Source: Chitinophagaceae bacterium
Lineage (GTDB): Bacteria > Bacteroidota > Bacteroidia > Chitinophagales > Chitinophagaceae
Direction: 5' to 3'
Length of the DNA stretch: 33,221 bases
Assembly (NCBI GenBank): GCA_025933775.1
Contig: JAICZH010000030.1
Coordinates: 1-33,221 of the forward strand
How positions within the stretch are numbered: the stretch's first letter is position 1; every line of letters starts with the position of its first letter. Of this stretch, positions 1 through 31,326 are shown piece after piece. Below the pieces are notes generated by a model. It did no database searches and was not told the origin of the DNA. It saw only the letters and a program-made list of their open reading frames with translations. Position numbers and translations under genes: made by a program.

Positions 1-142
1 AATAAAAAATCAGAATTTTTTTTAAACGAGACGATACATAATAGAACAAATAACATTCCCGAAAGCCTGTTAAAATTTTTTTAAGTATTTTCATTCTTCA
101 AAATGATTGCTGCATTGTTAATTTTAAATTTTTTTATTGATC

Positions 143-2719
143 ATGGATAACCAGTCCACACGCGGGTTGCAGCATTTTAGGAATTACGTTGGCATTAAGT
201 TTCAGCTGTATAACAGCTTGTTCACTTCATTGCCATTTCACCGAATTGAAAAAACAGGAATTCTTTTATCGCTGTTTGTAAACATTTGCGAAGAAGGCTA
301 TAAAAAAAAATTAAGCCCTGCAAAAATTATTGAAGATTTTTTTAAAAAACATACTTCACTTACATCTGAAGAAGATCAGACAGATGTGCTTTTCCGGTTT
401 ATTCAATTTGTAGAAAGACAAGTTGTATTATTTGATGCGCTTGAAGATGCCGCTTTCGTTCATGTAAATGATGTAGGGGGCGCCGGCACTTTAAAGCAAT
501 TAGAGCTGGAAGTTATTCAAAATAATAAAGTAGATGCCTTAGCAAAAAAGCTGGAGGATTTTTCAATAGAACTGGTGCTCACAGCGCATCCTACGCAGTT
601 TTATCCGGGCTCTGTTTTAGGAATTATTAATGATCTTTCAAAATCATTAACGCAAAATAATACAGCGCAGATAAATATGTATTTGCAACAATTAGGCAAA
701 ACGCCTTTCTTCAAAAAAGAAAAACCCACGCCTTATGATGAAGCGCTAAGCCTTATCTGGTATTTGGAAAATGTATTTTTTGCAGCGGCGGGCCGCATTC
801 GTACTTTTTTAAAAAATCAATTTCTACATGCCATTCATGAAAATAATCCTGTTATTAAAATGGGATTTTGGCCCGGTGGCGACAGAGATGGCAATCCTTT
901 TGTAAATACAGAAATCACTTTAAAAGTTGCTGATGCATTAAGAGGCGCAATTATAAAAAGCTATTATCTCGAAATACGCAAACTCAAGCGCCGCCTTACT
1001 TTCAAGGGAGTGGATACGCTTTTATCTGACTTAGAAAAAAAATTATATAATAATATTTTTATTCCCGGAAATAAAACACATTTAACTACAAAAGAAATAC
1101 TGGATGTATTAAATAATATAAGAGAAATACTTATTTACCAGCATAACGGATTGTTTCTTCATTTGGTGGATAATCTTATAAATAAAATTCATGTTTTTGG
1201 TTTGCACTTTGCATCCATTGATATACGGCAGGATAGTTCCATTCATAAAAAAGTATTTGAAGCATTAGCTGCTGCAGGCGATATTTTACCTGATGATTAT
1301 TTACAATTAAGTGATGATAAAAAAATAGAATTTCTTACTACGAATAATAAAATACTTTCTTCAATTGATTTTAAAGATCCCATTATCAACGATACATTCG
1401 AAAGCATTAAAGCCATAAAATTAATTCAGGAATATAATGGCGAGCCGGGCTGCAATCGTTACATCATAAGCCATAGCAGCAGCGCATTACATGTTTTGGA
1501 AGTATATGGTTTATTTATTTTATGCGGATGGAAAAAAGCAGAAATGCATGTGGATATTGTTCCCTTAATTGAAACGGTAGAAGATTTGCAAAATGCTGCA
1601 TCCACTGTAAAAATTTTGTATGAAAATAAAGAATACCGGAAACATTTGCAGAGAAGAAATAACACACAAACGATAATGCTTGGTTTTAGTGATGGCACCA
1701 AAGATGGCGGATATTTAATGGGCAACTGGAGCATTTATAAAACCAAAGAAGAACTTACTGCAGTTTCAAAACAATACGACATTGATGTGATTTTTTTTGA
1801 CGGGCGTGGCGGACCGCCTGCAAGGGGCGGCGGAAAAACACATAAGTTTTATGCATCTATGGGAAAAAATATTGCTAATAAAGAAATACAATTAACGATA
1901 CAAGGGCAAACGGTTAGTTCCAACTTTGGAACTATTGATGCAGCGCAATTTAATATGGAACAATTAATTCATGCCGGTATTTGGAATGATCTTTTATCCA
2001 ATAAACATATTACGCTTGAAAAAGATGAAGAAGCGCTTTTGCAGGAAATGGCTGATGAAAGTTATGATGCATACATCAAACTTAAAAATCATCCTGACTT
2101 TATGGATTATTTAATTCATATAAGCCCTTTAAAATTTTATAGCGAAACTAATATTGGCAGCAGGCCTGCAAAGCGAGGGGCAAGTAAATTAACCCTTGAT
2201 AATCTTCGCGCCATTCCGTTTGTGGGCGCATGGAGCCAGTTGAAACAAAATGTAACCGGCTATTATGGCGTGGGCACTGCATTGCAAAAAATGGAACACG
2301 AAGGAAAATTACATCAATTGAAAACTTTATATCAACATTCATTATTTTTTAAAACGCTTATTGATAATTGCGAAATGGCAATGAAGAAATGTTTTTTCCC
2401 GCTTACAGAATATTTAGCGAAAGATGAAAAATATGGTGAGATATGGAACATGATTTATAAAGAATATACTGTTACAGAAAAATATCTTTTTCAATTAACA
2501 GGCAAAAATGAGCTAATGGCTGATTATCCGGTAGAACAACAATCAATAGCTATGCGTGAAAAAATTGTTTTGCCTTTAGTAACCATTCAGCAATTTGCCA
2601 TTGAAAATATTCGTGAGATGGAAAAAGAAATGGTAAATAATAAATTAAAAGATACTTACGAAAAGCTGGCCATGCGTTGTTCATTTGGAATTATAAATGC
2701 AGGCAGAAATTCGGCGTAA
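143..2719 (+). CDS. ppc: Phosphoenolpyruvate carboxylase
   Basis: Cytosolic enzyme that carboxylates phosphoenolpyruvate with bicarbonate to oxaloacetate, refilling the TCA cycle. The 858-residue length is usual for the family. Visible signatures are LTAHPTQFYPG with the catalytic His near residue 149, the glycine-rich loop GRGGPPARGGGKTH near 553-567, and SRPAKRG near 674. The Gln after HPT (Glu in E. coli: HPTEI) and the PPA inside the loop differ from the proteobacterial form; I believe they are normal for the Bacteroidota branch, but that is from memory. The frame also opens with TTG at 137; I prefer ATG 143. No clear TAnnTTTG promoter is visible in the 142 upstream bases. The gene stands alone, followed by a tandem repeat element and convergent with a thioredoxin-like gene. 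Confidence 0.96.
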   Translation: MDNQSTRGLQHFRNYVGIKFQLYNSLFTSLPFHRIEKTGILLSLFVNICEEGYKKKLSPAKIIEDFFKKHTSLTSEEDQTDVLFRFIQFVERQVVLFDALEDAAFVHVNDVGGAGTLKQLELEVIQNNKVDALAKKLEDFSIELVLTAHPTQFYPGSVLGIINDLSKSLTQNNTAQINMYLQQLGKTPFFKKEKPTPYDEALSLIWYLENVFFAAAGRIRTFLKNQFLHAIHENNPVIKMGFWPGGDRDGNPFVNTEITLKVADALRGAIIKSYYLEIRKLKRRLTFKGVDTLLSDLEKKLYNNIFIPGNKTHLTTKEILDVLNNIREILIYQHNGLFLHLVDNLINKIHVFGLHFASIDIRQDSSIHKKVFEALAAAGDILPDDYLQLSDDKKIEFLTTNNKILSSIDFKDPIINDTFESIKAIKLIQEYNGEPGCNRYIISHSSSALHVLEVYGLFILCGWKKAEMHVDIVPLIETVEDLQNAASTVKILYENKEYRKHLQRRNNTQTIMLGFSDGTKDGGYLMGNWSIYKTKEELTAVSKQYDIDVIFFDGRGGPPARGGGKTHKFYASMGKNIANKEIQLTIQGQTVSSNFGTIDAAQFNMEQLIHAGIWNDLLSNKHITLEKDEEALLQEMADESYDAYIKLKNHPDFMDYLIHISPLKFYSETNIGSRPAKRGASKLTLDNLRAIPFVGAWSQLKQNVTGYYGVGTALQKMEHEGKLHQLKTLYQHSLFFKTLIDNCEMAMKKCFFPLTEYLAKDEKYGEIWNMIYKEYTVTEKYLFQLTGKNELMADYPVEQQSIAMREKIVLPLVTIQQFAIENIREMEKEMVNNKLKDTYEKLAMRCSFGIINAGRNSA

Positions 2720-2725
2720 GAAAAA

Positions 2726-2815
2726 ATAAAAAAGGGGCCGGATAAAAATCCACCCCTGTTATAATCCAATATCCTATGAAAAACCGAGTTGGAAGCTATG
2801 CAGCTTCATAATATT
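2726..2815 (-). ncRNA. Structured repeat element, copy A (sRNA-like or terminator)
   Basis: About 90 nt, almost identical to copy B at 2908-2995. Read on the minus strand it has a short hairpin (GAAGCT, loop, AGCTTC), about 40 invariant nt, then a hairpin of GGGGTGGAT pairing with ATCCGGCCCC (one bulged G), followed by a T-rich run. That last part is a good intrinsic terminator in the minus direction. On the plus strand the small hairpin followed by ATAATATTTTT could weakly terminate ppc. No family was recognised; it may be a dispersed repeat, a small RNA ending in its own terminator, or just a bidirectional terminator. No convincing promoter was found upstream on the minus strand. Confidence 0.5.
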
Positions 2816-2907
2816 TTTAATAGCTCTTTACTTTTAATTTTAGTGATAGACACCAGGTCTCATTAAAACGTTGCATCGGAGCAAATTATTACTTTAAATT
2901 TAAAAAA

Positions 2908-2995
2908 AGGGGCCGGATGAAAATCCACCCCTGTTATAATCCAATATCCTATGAAAAACCGAGTTGGAAGCTGCTGTTGCGGCTTCATAATATTA
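2908..2995 (-). ncRNA. Structured repeat element, copy B (sRNA-like or terminator)
   Basis: Second tandem copy of the element at 2726-2815, starting about 12 nt after the stop of the thioredoxin-like gene, so it can act as that gene's 3' UTR and terminator. The terminator hairpin is the same as in copy A except for one base in its loop (GGAT GAAA ATCC on the plus strand, against AAAA) and is followed on the minus strand by seven T. The small hairpin differs: here GAAGCTGC pairs with GCGGCTTC (one G-T wobble, 8 bp) instead of the 6-bp GAAGCT/AGCTTC, so the arm changed length while remaining a stem. The sequence between the hairpins is identical in both copies. Confidence 0.5.
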
Positions 2996-3007
2996 TTACA
3001 TGGCAAT

Positions 3008-3529
3008 TTACCACGATGATTTAAAAGTTGTTTTAAACACTTCAAAACTTTCAGTTTTGTAAGCCCCTTCTCCAAAATACTTCAAAATTGGTTCCATTTC
3101 TTTTGGTTCTAAAAATCCCTGTATTGAAATAGGCTCACTGTTATCATCAACAAATATTATTGTAGTTGGAAACCCAGGCTGCCCCGAAGTGGCATACATC
3201 GTAAAATCATTTACTTTATAATTTTCATTGTAGCTATACGATTTATTTTTCCAGTCAATAACACTTTTAGTTTCTGCATCTAATTTTACAGGGTAAAAAT
3301 GATCGTTGATATAGTTGATCACTTTTGAATTAGAATATGTTTTCTTATCCATTACTTTGCACCAATAGCACCAATTGGTATATAAATCTATTAAAGCAGG
3401 TTTTGGGTCAGATTGCATTTTTTCTTTCAGTTCGCTCATTTTTATCCATGCTAATTTATCATGCGCAGTTGATGTAACTTTGAAAGAGCATAAAAAAAAT
3501 AGAAATATTACTAAATTAAATTTTACCAT
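3008..3529 (-). CDS. Exported thioredoxin-fold protein (WCYWC)
   Basis: Thioredoxin-like protein of about 173 residues with an N-terminal hydrophobic signal peptide (KFNLVIFLFFLCSF), so it acts outside the cytoplasm. The redox motif is WCYWCK (Cys near 54 and 57), and GFPT near 121 supplies the expected cis-proline. The aromatic WCYWC centre is typical of DUF255-like and DsbD C-terminal-like thioredoxins and suggests a periplasmic thiol-disulfide role; the partner is unknown. The open frame continues upstream to 3598 without another convincing start; ATG at 3529 or 3538 puts the signal peptide at the N terminus. It is divergent from ubiX and followed by structured element copy B. Confidence 0.8.
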   Translation of the reverse strand: MVKFNLVIFLFFLCSFKVTSTAHDKLAWIKMSELKEKMQSDPKPALIDLYTNWCYWCKVMDKKTYSNSKVINYINDHFYPVKLDAETKSVIDWKNKSYSYNENYKVNDFTMYATSGQPGFPTTIIFVDDNSEPISIQGFLEPKEMEPILKYFGEGAYKTESFEVFKTTFKSSW

Positions 3530-3624
3530 TTTCAACATTACAATAGTAAACGTACGATTGATGTATTTTATTGGATTTAGAATAAAAAAATTATTCACGT
3601 TTAACTTATCTTTTTTTTAAAAAA

Positions 3625-28358: not shown

Positions 28359-28907
28359 ATGAAAAATCTTCTACGCAATTTTTTGCTTGCTTTAGCAATC
28401 TTATGTTCTTCAACAAGTAAAGCCCAGATTGATACTTCTACGATTGAGGGATTGTATCAATACATTTTTAATATCCTGGATAAAAATCAAATACCTACTC
28501 ATTATTTGGGTGAATATGGCGCTCCGGTTCTTACTATGGGCAGATATAACGGGTTATTAACCGATAGTAACACAGTTGATATAAATGTATGGCGCACGTT
28601 ATATTGGCAAATCGCTTCGACTTATGTAGGTACCGGTACTAATTCTTTTACTGCCATCACAAATGTAAATAACGCTATTAAACCGTTAGTAGCCGATACT
28701 CTTCCTATTCCTGTTCCTCTTTTATTTGCAAAATATAATAGCGTAAAAAGTGATGCTTTCAGCTTAAATCTTTTGCAAATTGTAAATAACCAGGTAAAAG
28801 ACGTGCCCGGGAGACCGCAAAGCCCTTACCAGCAAAATAATTTATTTGCAGCGACGCCTGTAAAAGCCTATACCAACACAGGAACAGCGAGTTTTATTTT
28901 TGTCTAA
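28359..28907 (+). CDS. N-terminal part of a split type IX secreted esterase-like gene
   Basis: 182 residues with a Sec signal peptide (LLRNFLLALAILCSSTSKAQ). The mature part (DTSTIEGLYQYIFNILDKNQIPT and onward) has no domain I can name. The frame ends FIFV-stop at 28905-28907, while the downstream frame continues the same protein from SNLFYTNGTATISS. Removing one T from the five-T run at 28897-28901 joins them as FILSNLFYTNG. So this and the next entry are almost certainly one gene of about 990 codons, broken by a real frameshift or a homopolymer sequencing error. Confidence 0.8.
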   Translation: MKNLLRNFLLALAILCSSTSKAQIDTSTIEGLYQYIFNILDKNQIPTHYLGEYGAPVLTMGRYNGLLTDSNTVDINVWRTLYWQIASTYVGTGTNSFTAITNVNNAIKPLVADTLPIPVPLLFAKYNSVKSDAFSLNLLQIVNNQVKDVPGRPQSPYQQNNLFAATPVKAYTNTGTASFIFV

Positions 28908-31326
28908 TCTTTTTTATACTAATGGCACAGCCACAATAAGCAGCATTTCTATTGACTTTGCTGATGGCGCCGGGTATCATCCCGTAACTCTTAATAATGC
29001 TATTACCGTTAACTACGCTGATACAGGAGTAAAGCAATTAAAAATAAAATTAGTATTGAGCGATGCCACTACCAGTGAGTGCTATTCAAATTTTTATGTG
29101 GCTAATGTAGTTAATCAAACCCAATTATATGATCCTAACAGTTATGACCTTTTACAACCCTTTTTTCCAGATGCAAATCAAAGTGGCGGGAATGTGTATG
29201 TGCGCTATAGTCGTAAAGGAACAGAAAGAACTATTACAAAGCCTCTGATAGTAGTTGAAGGCTACGACATAAACCATGTCGCTCCAGATATAATAGGAAA
29301 TTATGGCTATCAGGATTTTGTTAATGCTGTAATAAATGAGCCATACCCTGGCTTTGATTTTAATTATCATTTAGATGATTTGGCTGGTTACGATTTAATC
29401 TTTGTTGATTATACTGATGGCACGGATGATATAACACGCAATGCGACATTGCTGGAAAATGTAATTCAGTGGGTAAATACACAAAAGGCAATTAATGGAA
29501 GCGTAGAACAAAATGTGGTAATGGGCATAAGCATGGGCGGTCTTGTAAGTAGATATGCGCTTGCAGATATGACTAAAAAAAGTCTTTCAACAGGTACACG
29601 ATTATTAATAACCCATGATAGCCCACATGAAGGAGCAAATGTACCATTGGGTTTGCAGTATTTAATAGAAATGGCAGGGGGTGTGCATCTGTTCAGCTAT
29701 AATGTAAGAGATATATATCCGCAATATGATGAAGCCATTAACTTGTTGGCTCGCCCTGCAACGCAACAATTATTATTGTACCGGGCAACAGGTGCAAATA
29801 CTTCAGTTAATAATACTTTTTTAAATACAACATATAGAAACATGATTACGTTTAGCCCATCTGATCCGCAACCAACTTACAGTTTTGTTGCAACGAGCTT
29901 GGGCTCACAATGTGGTAACGCGCTTTTTCTCGCATATCAACAATTAGTTAATTCAGATGCAGACGTATTTTTGTTTTTCTTTCCTTTATTATCCTATCAT
30001 TTTCATACTACTATTAAAGCCTACGGAATGCCAAATACGGGTTCTACCAATCTTATCGCAAGTCTTTTATTAAAAAGTAAATTTAAATTGTTTGGGCTCA
30101 TTACCATTGCAAAACAAATTTATAATAACAGTGGTAACGCCCCTGGTACGCAACTTCCGGTAGATGGAGCTCCTGGAGGTAAGTATACGCTGATAAATGG
30201 AACAGTTCCCAGTGTAAAGCTTTTTTTACCAGTTGGTTTATTTAATATTTTTGGATCCGTATTTGTAAATACAGGTACACTTCCAACAGAATTTTGCTTT
30301 GTACCGGCAGGCAGTGCTTTAGACGTGTCACCATTTAATACTAATACCTTCTCACAAAAATTTGTTAGTGGAATGAATCCAAATTATCCCTCTACAAGTA
30401 AAAATTATATAGCTCAAGAAACTATTTCAGCGGGTGTTTATAATAACGATCACCCACGCTTTACCGCACGAAATGCAGAATGGCTATATGACCAAATGGA
30501 AAATATTGCCAATACTTTAAATTGTTCAGCTGAATGCAGCCCTGACTTATCAGTTTCAGTTTCTACAAATCCTATTTGCACCAGTGCAACAGCATCCATC
30601 GCTGGTTTATCTCCTTCTTCTACTGTTACATGGTCTGCTTCACCGACAGGAATTGTATCAATAACACCAAATGGCCAACAGGCAACGGTAACAAAGGTAA
30701 GCGCCGGAAATGTTACTATTACTGGAACGGTAAATTCATGCAATAGCTACTCAACAAATGTACATGTAGGTGGCTACGGCAGCGGTGATTATCCTGTTTC
30801 TGGTCCGGATAATGCTTCATGCAATGCTTATGTAACTTATACCACCAATCAATTAGCAGGCGCAACAAATTATGCATGGTTTTATCCAAGTGGCTGGACT
30901 TATATAGATGGACAAGGCACTTACATGTTAACACTTAGAACCAACAATACAAACGGCTATTATCAGGTAGGCGTGAGAGTAGCCAATACCTGCGATGCGG
31001 GAGGAAGCCCTGCAATTAAAAATACTTTTCTTAGCGGTTGTTCAGGATTTCATTACATCGTTTCTCCGAATCCTGCCACTTCCACTGTTAATGCAAGCGT
31101 TGCACAAAATAGTAGTGCAAGTGATGATTCAAAACCTTCAAGTCAATTATCAATTTCTGAAATTAATATTTATGATCAAACAGGTAATTTAAAAATCCAT
31201 AAAACCTATAGTAACATCAAAAATGCAAGTATAGATGTTAGTAGTCTTTCTACCGGAATTTATTTAATCGAAATTAAAAATGATACTTTTAAAGAAACAC
31301 AGAAATTGCAGATATTAAAAAATTAA
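28900..31326 (+). CDS. C-terminal part of split secreted alpha/beta hydrolase with type IX sorting domain
   Basis: About 808 residues from the apparent TTG, which is probably not a real start. Order: short beta domain; alpha/beta-hydrolase region with PLIVVEGYDI and nucleophile elbow GISMGG (Ser211), like PGAP1/lipase-type esterases; a long variable stretch; an Ig-like/PKD region (PDLSVSVSTNPICTSATASI onward); and a C-terminal type A sorting domain from YIVSPNPATSTVNASV to IYLIEIKNDTFKETQKL. The sorting domain marks export by the type IX system and anchoring or release at the surface. Substrate is unknown. It ends convergent with minus-strand DNA leading to osmC. Confidence 0.85.
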   Translation: MSNLFYTNGTATISSISIDFADGAGYHPVTLNNAITVNYADTGVKQLKIKLVLSDATTSECYSNFYVANVVNQTQLYDPNSYDLLQPFFPDANQSGGNVYVRYSRKGTERTITKPLIVVEGYDINHVAPDIIGNYGYQDFVNAVINEPYPGFDFNYHLDDLAGYDLIFVDYTDGTDDITRNATLLENVIQWVNTQKAINGSVEQNVVMGISMGGLVSRYALADMTKKSLSTGTRLLITHDSPHEGANVPLGLQYLIEMAGGVHLFSYNVRDIYPQYDEAINLLARPATQQLLLYRATGANTSVNNTFLNTTYRNMITFSPSDPQPTYSFVATSLGSQCGNALFLAYQQLVNSDADVFLFFFPLLSYHFHTTIKAYGMPNTGSTNLIASLLLKSKFKLFGLITIAKQIYNNSGNAPGTQLPVDGAPGGKYTLINGTVPSVKLFLPVGLFNIFGSVFVNTGTLPTEFCFVPAGSALDVSPFNTNTFSQKFVSGMNPNYPSTSKNYIAQETISAGVYNNDHPRFTARNAEWLYDQMENIANTLNCSAECSPDLSVSVSTNPICTSATASIAGLSPSSTVTWSASPTGIVSITPNGQQATVTKVSAGNVTITGTVNSCNSYSTNVHVGGYGSGDYPVSGPDNASCNAYVTYTTNQLAGATNYAWFYPSGWTYIDGQGTYMLTLRTNNTNGYYQVGVRVANTCDAGGSPAIKNTFLSGCSGFHYIVSPNPATSTVNASVAQNSSASDDSKPSSQLSISEINIYDQTGNLKIHKTYSNIKNASIDVSSLSTGIYLIEIKNDTFKETQKLQILKN

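Follow-up and report, generated by a model that had tools for sequence, protein, structure and literature searches.

Candidate small RNA units of the FopS kind, with a near-invariant 5′ seed and an intrinsic terminator, in Chitinophagaceae

The DNA analyzed here, called the window, is a stretch of 33,221 nucleotides from a Chitinophagaceae bacterium. It contains two tandem copies of a structured element, each of which is explained best, and with rather good confidence, as a candidate minus-strand small RNA unit of the FopS kind. Such a unit, of which a genome has several copies, consists of a single-stranded and near-invariant 5′ seed (about 25–28 nt) with an intrinsic terminator immediately after it. 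The computed support for this explanation consists of sequence conservation, covariation of the terminator, positioned promoter boxes in most copies of the family and a graded likeness to FopS. The mechanistic part is taken over from FopS, because the target tests showed no specific regulon.

Window copies and conserved core

Copy 1 (approximately 2726–2819) and copy 2 (approximately 2901–2998) are 175 nt apart, start to start, and both lie between the genes of phosphoenolpyruvate carboxylase (137–2719, plus strand) and a thioredoxin-like protein (3008–3598, minus strand). When read on the minus strand, both end in a GC-rich hairpin and a T run. The features considered are the following:

137–2719, plus strand: phosphoenolpyruvate carboxylase gene, converging on copy 1; a neighbor, outside the RNA
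2734–2756, minus strand: copy 1 terminator hairpin GGGGTGGAT-TTTT-ATCCGGCCCC, with T run to about 2728 (fold, covariation)
2758–2785, minus strand: copy 1 conserved open 5′ seed GGTTTTTCATAGGATATTGGATTATAAC (first 23 nt near-invariant over 109 copies)
2792–2807, minus strand: copy 1 small hairpin GAAGCT-GCAT-AGCTTC, just 5′ of the seed, genus-level (27-copy covariation)
2846–2875, minus strand: copy 1 promoter-like site TGCAAC-N17-nnnCTAT, 60 nt 5′ of the seed (motif search)
2909–2931, minus strand: copy 2 terminator hairpin, with T run to about 2902 (fold, covariation)
2933–2960, minus strand: copy 2 conserved open 5′ seed, the same as in copy 1 (sequence comparison)
2967–2986, minus strand: copy 2 small hairpin GAAGCCGC-AACA-GCAGCTTC, with one C.A mismatch on the minus strand (fold, covariation)
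3008–3598, minus strand: thioredoxin-like gene (Thioredox_DsbH, PF03190), with its stop 47 nt before the copy 2 seed; probable host transcript of copy 2

Elsewhere in the window, positions 28900–31326 correspond to a putative type IX-secreted protein with a PKD-like domain and a Por_Secre_tail.

The description of two nearly identical tandem copies in the original prediction was confirmed, with 99% identity over a 70-nt block (2728–2797 and 2903–2972) and 90% over a 21-nt block (2799–2819 and 2978–2998), and the single base difference that it placed in the terminator loop is real. On the minus strand, each copy consists, in this order, of the small hairpin, a few bases ending in AACTC, the seed, the GC-rich hairpin and the T run, and both copies fold into the small hairpin, a mostly open stretch of about 35 nt and the GC-rich hairpin followed by T. 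The folding energy of the minus strand was unremarkable (z = −1.79 and −2.09 for the two copies). Since the plus strand folded better relative to shuffled sequences (z = −2.55 and −3.83), the strand assignment is based on the T run and the promoters, not on energy. Concerning the small hairpin, the change from 6 to 8 bp that had been taken as compensatory is real on the plus strand, but on the minus strand the longer stem contains a C.A mismatch, so the two window copies by themselves are weak evidence of compensation.

Matches to copy 1 at E ≤ 1e-3 were obtained in 47 of the 99 genomes searched, own genome included, which excludes chance; 46 of the 47 came from the same family. From 93 loci, 109 distinct copies were taken, those with identical 75 nt being counted once. 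Two regex matches that were not of the window type (A-type) were left out (L049 at 2426, later identified as F-type, and L058 minus). Over the first 23 nt of the seed, every position was identical in at least 107 of the 109 copies, a count biased upwards because the copies were found by similarity. It agrees with the earlier remark that the conserved open linker would not be needed by a plain terminator. The terminator was analyzed in 71 copies chosen from the 109: 93.1% of the cells were paired and 55 double-change cells were counted versus 11.3 in shuffles (in either case, 0/500 shuffles as high), while the occurrence of changes on both sides in 6/10 pairs was a weaker result (29/500 shuffles as high). 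This covariation supports the proposal of a minus-strand intrinsic terminator, with GC hairpin and T run, and of a selected structure.

The small hairpin covaries over 27 copies of the own genus, with a mean of 6.59 pairs out of 7 and 17 different right arms, compared to 5.04 ± 0.17 pairs (maximum 5.63) when the left arms were permuted among the 27 copies. In the fixed register of this test, window copy 1 scores 4/7 because its 6-bp stem extends beyond the tested stretch. As a real and covarying feature, the small hairpin is added to the core at the level of the genus. The family-wide unit is a core of about 60 nt, formed by the near-invariant open 5′ seed GGUUUUUCAUAGGAUAUUGGAUU and then the covarying terminator. 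The unit of about 90 nt proposed originally holds for the own genus, but what is conserved across the family is the shorter core of seed plus terminator. The further copies with covarying stems on which the prediction depended were found in other genomes, both for the terminator and for the small hairpin.

Distribution, promoters and genomic context

A covariance model of the core (R1) matched 218 of 294 genomes of the family, in 78 of 101 genera, with 1–17 matches per genome. By table count, 29 of the 218 had weak matches only (E from 5e-8 to 7e-4), many of which are other subtypes. Outside the family, only four genomes matched R1, all of them weakly, in a 298-genome sample of the order. Five matches lie in the own genome, two on C36 and one each on C169, C137 and C51, the last of these being diverged. 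The exact 22-nt seed was present in at least 119 genome stretches; the titles of the 80 listed name Chitinophagaceae, Chitinophagales, Chitinophagia, Sphingobacteriales, Bacteroidetes/Bacteroidota, or genera, which among the matches listed include Niastella, Terrimonas, Flavihumibacter, Flavipsychrobacter, Puia, Ferruginibacter and Filimonas. In the viral-contig collection, the exact 22-nt seed occurred on one stretch only; a window-type RNA is located on one 236-kb IMG/VR contig (L345:5815-5873). The exact FopS 24-mer is present on 17 IMG/VR contig stretches.

Additional subtypes were reached from weak R1 matches; they begin like the window type and diverge after the first ~12 nt. They are a B-type (GGTTTTTCATAGGATATGGTTAAAAT), mainly of genus g7, a C-type (AGTTTTCATAGGGTACGGATTAAAA) that includes the own genome, a D-type (GGGTTTTCATAGGATAGTAACAA) and an F-type (GGTTTTTCATAGGATAAGGTTTAATGGTTAATGG) with 16 distinct copies. 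The F-type was seen as GGTTTTTCATAGGATAAGGTTTAATGGTTAATGG...GATTAG plus terminator at L448–L475 (e.g., L470:1438-1519). At another locus (L303:1501-1551 and 2023-2399), a tmRNA gene and a diverged seed RNA (TGTTTTTCATAGGTTAGCAACGGC) are about 470 nt apart.

Outside the own-genus loci, a TAnnTTT[GA]/TAnnTTCG box precedes the seed in 55 of 81 copies, at a distance of exactly 4 nt (50 copies) or 5 nt (5 copies). Over 400 nt upstream, 56 boxes fell in that 7-nt bin, versus no more than 6 in any other bin. Upstream of the box, a TTG starting 22–24 nt before it occurred 32 times over 56 copies, other spacings giving at most 7. The TAnnTTTG type is the consensus of the Bacteroidota −7 box according to PMC9723704. 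As the box ends 4–5 nt before the GG of the seed, transcription should start at or next to this GG and give an RNA of about 60 nt. So, the copies with a box directly 5′ of the seed look like standalone sRNA genes. The box occupies the same place in 26 of 29 B-type copies; among the F-type copies, 7 have a seed-adjacent TAnnTTTG box and 7 have TGCAAC 33–34 nt upstream. Neither promoter type (TAnnTTTG, TGCAAC) was found in 25 of the 81 copies outside the own-genus loci. An inverted repeat TACC-N7/8-GGTA is located 34–35 nt before the seed GG in 16 of 82 copies, and it occurs once elsewhere in the 400 nt. Its carriers include L024, L053 and L080. It is likely an operator, at the −33 region, of some regulator; presumably, it resembles sites of the NarL/FixJ type.

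The upstream gene is on the same strand in 60 of 82 other copies and on the opposite strand in 22. One recurring site has a gldN-like gene upstream, on the same strand (28 flank sequences), and a converging uvrC (29). These names come from one fragment of 161–200 aa per cluster, compared with NCBIfam, the GldN match having 40.3 bits, below the cut-off of 85.9. The genes converging on recurring sites (flanks of L003 and L021–L093) included uvrC (29), recQ (8, three from one locus) and recA (4); that all three are DNA-repair genes may be a coincidence.

At the window site, 17 own-genus loci were considered: 11 with two full copies, five with one, and one further locus in which the second copy is cut by the contig end. 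Considering the 27 distinct copies of the genus, 15 lie 32–47 nt and 11 lie 222–326 nt after the upstream same-strand stop, and the upstream same-strand gene belongs to the thioredoxin-like cluster in 26 entries. The TAnnTTTG box was in none of these 27 copies, both window copies included; the box-bearing exception in the 28-copy set, L021, is located at a different site. The sequence TGCAAC-N17-nnnCTA[AT] was found 59–94 nt before the seed in 8 of the 27 copies, window copy 1 among them; in 800 kb of two other genomes, searched on both strands (1.6 Mb), it occurred 4 times. We infer that this TGCAAC-type site is a promoter, of an alternative sigma factor; no published source for a promoter of this type in Bacteroidota was found in the literature search. 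The two window copies are thus probably expressed in different ways. The stop-to-copy distances and the gene cluster at the site suggest that copy 2 is probably the tail (3′ UTR) of the thioredoxin-like mRNA, while the TGCAAC-type site upstream of copy 1 suggests that it is probably an own transcript of about 110 nt. With the start points predicted in this way, transcripts of both kinds would expose the same open seed.

Relation to FopS and to other known RNAs

According to their description (PMC11697453), the FopS RNAs of Bacteroides thetaiotaomicron (RF04319, BTncRNA_FopS) are 14 paralogous sRNAs of 65–70 nt, with a single-stranded 5′ seed, GUGUUUUUCAUAGUAUUAGAUUUAAGG, followed by a Rho-independent terminator. 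They have standard Bacteroidota promoters, one member is derived from a 3′ UTR, and they are reported to be highly conserved within the Bacteroidaceae. In gut Bacteroides, according to the same text, they act as a post-transcriptional hub for the uptake of glycans: by pairing close to the start codon, they repress the translation of SusC, and the RRM-1 protein RbpB binds to their 5′ part.

The Chitinophagaceae RNAs share with FopS the presence of several paralogous copies per genome (5 in the own genome; 1–17 in 218/294), the layout of an open 5′ seed and then a terminator, which here is a covarying one in a core of about 60–62 nt, and, in most copies of the family, a standard Bacteroidota promoter at the 5′ end (55/81 copies, 26/29 of the B-type, 7/16 of the F-type; window copies, 0/2). 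The window units look longer than the core because of their 5′ hairpin. A member derived from a 3′ UTR is a further likeness, here probably window copy 2. The seed opens with GUGUUUUUCAUAG-UAUUAGAUUUAA in FopS versus GGUUUUUCAUAGGAUAUUGGAUUUUAA in the window type; the FopS consensus GTGTTTTTCATAGTATTAGATTTAAGGTTAACAAA, as it appears in the published text, and the window type both contain GTTTTTCATAG, the remainder being alignable. Compared to the FopS R1 seed GUUUUUCAUAGUAUUAGAUUUAA, the first 11–12 nt or so of the window seed (GUUUUUCAUAG) are identical, and the rest aligns with a 2-nt gap and differences. Unlike FopS, the window type diverges after these first ~12 nt, has another terminator sequence, is without an Rfam match and gave no SusC target signal in the computed tests. 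Furthermore, neither the genus-level 5′ hairpin nor promoters of the TGCAAC type or with an operator figure in the passages of the FopS description considered (PMC11697453).

The Rfam search gave no match at gathering for the window: RF04319 had none at its cut-off of 56 bits, nor any at E ≤ 5 for 2700–3020. The sub-threshold matches to other models in 2700–3020 (E ≤ 5), which were MicX (E = 0.013), TtnuCD26, RefA1, SorY, L20 leader and SQ1002, were read as chance. Full-length, sub-threshold matches to RF04319 were obtained for 4 of 13 F-type loci (30.6–36.4 bits, E from 0.095 to 1.2), the best score in Chitinophagaceae being the 36.4 bits of an F-type locus (L471). None of the 6 non-F-type loci matched at E ≤ 2, and the A-type viral contig (L345) had no match at gathering. 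Seventeen viral-contig FopS loci were picked by a 24-mer containing the shared seed start. Five of the 17 were compared with RF04319, and all five reach it, with 57.6–76.9 bits; model R1 finds 17/17, at the right place, with E from 6e-4 to 0.22. The F-type RNAs link the window RNA to FopS, though below the Rfam cut-off.

A mixed covariance model built with FopS rows (R2) was run on 395 genomes of the class and gave matches at E ≤ 0.01 in 118 of them, many weak. Its best matches came from the window's family and from f54; in three more families (f78, f87 and f98), it revealed FopS-type sequences that have promoter boxes. The weak matches in other families (E from about 1e-4 to 1e-2, with TTTTTCATAG plus terminator) were not counted as members; in most of the best of them, the TAnnTTTG box was absent.

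By the Rfam criterion, the window RNA is not FopS. On the strength of layout and graded likeness, we judge it to be a new branch of the FopS kind, and it is probably homologous to the Bacteroides FopS sRNAs. The proposal of an undescribed small RNA family was largely right, and the window has no Rfam match at gathering, but the kind of RNA is not entirely new, as it resembles FopS (RF04319; PMC11697453).

Two other Bacteroidota sRNAs can be compared. GibS of Bacteroides (PMC7366714) also has a conserved single-stranded 5′ seed, which pairs with translation start regions, and it carries the R1 seed common to FopS (PMC7366714, PMC11697453); it differs from the window RNA in its 145 nt, additional hairpins, second seed and non-standard promoter. 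Rfp18 of Flavobacterium psychrophilum (PMC9723704), compared by description only, is likewise a conserved sRNA of Bacteroidota. It has a transcript of its own, for which pairing with mRNA is predicted, but it would pair through a third stem-loop and not a 5′ seed. A Chitinophagaceae version of the RNA was not found in the literature, among the matches listed (titles and beginnings of abstracts).

Target tests, alternative explanations and significance

Because the core of the seed (UUUUUCAU) could pair with AUGAAAAA, its complement, pairing at start codons was the natural guess. For susC genes, 106 matches in two genomes were considered and 74 were used (53/53 in G142 and 21/53 in G023), from which 66 starts with ATG 55–140 nt before the match were compared with 500 other genes. 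The 66 starts paired with the seed no better than the others (p = 0.40), and relative to shuffled seeds 6 of 100 shuffles were as low. The start regions of 300 family genes paired better with the seed than with most shuffled seeds (1/60 as low). Start-codon pairing versus shuffles gave z values of −0.6 and −3.1 in two RNA-bearing genomes and −2.1 in a family genome without R1 match, so that, in this comparison of two genomes with one, specificity for RNA-bearing genomes was not seen.

Concerning short pieces of the seed complement, in 1404 predicted genes TCCT was not enriched before ATG (4 seen, 6.1 expected), and the counts for ATCCT and TATCCT were 2 versus 2.1 and 2 versus 0.7 expected, respectively. 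In 2.48 Mb, several k-mers of the complement were above expectation: TATCCTATGAA (8 versus 1.5), ATCCAATATCC (9 versus 2.7), CAATATCCT (73 versus 32) and, likewise, CCAATATCC; of the TATCCTATGA sites shown, 7/8 are further RNA variants. In the own genome, 18 nt of the complement were matched with 3 mismatches at 12 sites, versus 2 for the reversed control, and none of the 12 is a clear gene start. The pattern BTATCCTATGAAA matched in 96 of 147 genomes; 30 loci were inspected, and 15 were F-type RNAs, the rest being gene starts, intragenic sites, D-like RNAs and unclassified. The gene starts were about as many as a rough frequency product predicts.

A separate observation concerns the susC starts of G142 and G023 (L346–L415), many of which have GCTAT or TGCTAT directly before ATG. 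In the 1404 genes, GCTAT before ATG was seen 13 times versus 2.0 expected, in a sample enriched in susC because its windows were chosen around susC genes. It is possible that GCTAT/TGCTAT is a shared signal of translation or an sRNA target.

Other explanations have to be weighed against the sRNA unit. The copies could be conserved 3′-UTR terminator elements that end and stabilize upstream mRNAs, with the open stretch binding a protein such as RRM-1. This is suggested by the position of 15/27 genus copies, window copy 2 included, 32–47 nt after a same-strand stop, by the same-strand gene preceding 60/82 other copies, by the lack of a standard promoter box in both window copies, and by the occurrence of RRM_1 proteins (RbpB class) in 47 of 59 relatives, with two in the own genome. 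However, an element of this sort would not need a box exactly 4–5 nt before the seed, as found in 55/81 copies, and in 22/82 copies the upstream gene is on the opposite strand; we consider this explanation unlikely. It is also rather unlikely that the seed (GGUUUUUCAUAGGAUAUUGGAUU, with two GGA motifs) is a decoy that titrates an RNA-binding protein with no pairing to mRNA. Its conservation base by base, while computed pairing gives no regulon, would fit such a role, and RbpB does bind the 5′ part of FopS; but FopS, which has the same design, was shown to act by pairing (both points from PMC11697453), and the divergence of the subtypes after ~12 nt fits varied pairing partners better than one protein site.

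Most improbable of all would be a mobile or palindromic repeat (REP- or MITE-like), spread by copying and with the terminator as an incidental feature. Several copies per genome and tandem arrays of two to four are found, and three of the four L317 copies have flanks in common too. Against this, the flanks differ by eye outside tandem arrays, the exact 22-nt seed is on one viral-contig stretch only, and there is no sign of the match to a known transposon end that the original prediction had named as contrary evidence, because in many genera one site recurs between members of the same pair of gene families and the promoters are positioned relative to the seed.

If the copies are sRNA units of the FopS kind, transcription would begin close to the GG of the seed or, for the window copies, would give a longer RNA that carries a 5′ hairpin. 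The seed would then pair with mRNAs around the start codon and block translation, as FopS does on SusC transporters, and an RRM-1 protein may be involved in the repression. With copies under standard, operator-bearing or TGCAAC-type promoters, or in a 3′ UTR, one and the same repressor would be produced in response to different signals. Of the two window copies, copy 1 would be driven by a promoter of its own, and copy 2 would be carried along by the thioredoxin-like mRNA. A wider reading, which we advance as tentative, is that of a FopS-type family at the scale of the phylum, with the Bacteroides FopS as one branch. Subtypes A, B, C, D and F would keep the start-codon-complementary core UUUUCAUAGG while the rest varies, and the seed would be wired to varied promoters (of the alternative-sigma type or with the inverted-repeat operator) and to 3′ UTRs. 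With the same seed under separate promoters and in a 3′ UTR, one seed would integrate many inputs.

The Rfam model of FopS does not reach this RNA family of the Chitinophagaceae, and the exact seeds in Niastella, Terrimonas and Flavihumibacter, among others, allow genetic tests. If the Chitinophagaceae RNAs are of the same kind as FopS, a comparison of their subtypes could show which part of the seed is important, and the hub would be much older and wider, extending over the majority of the genomes in a large family of environmental bacteria.
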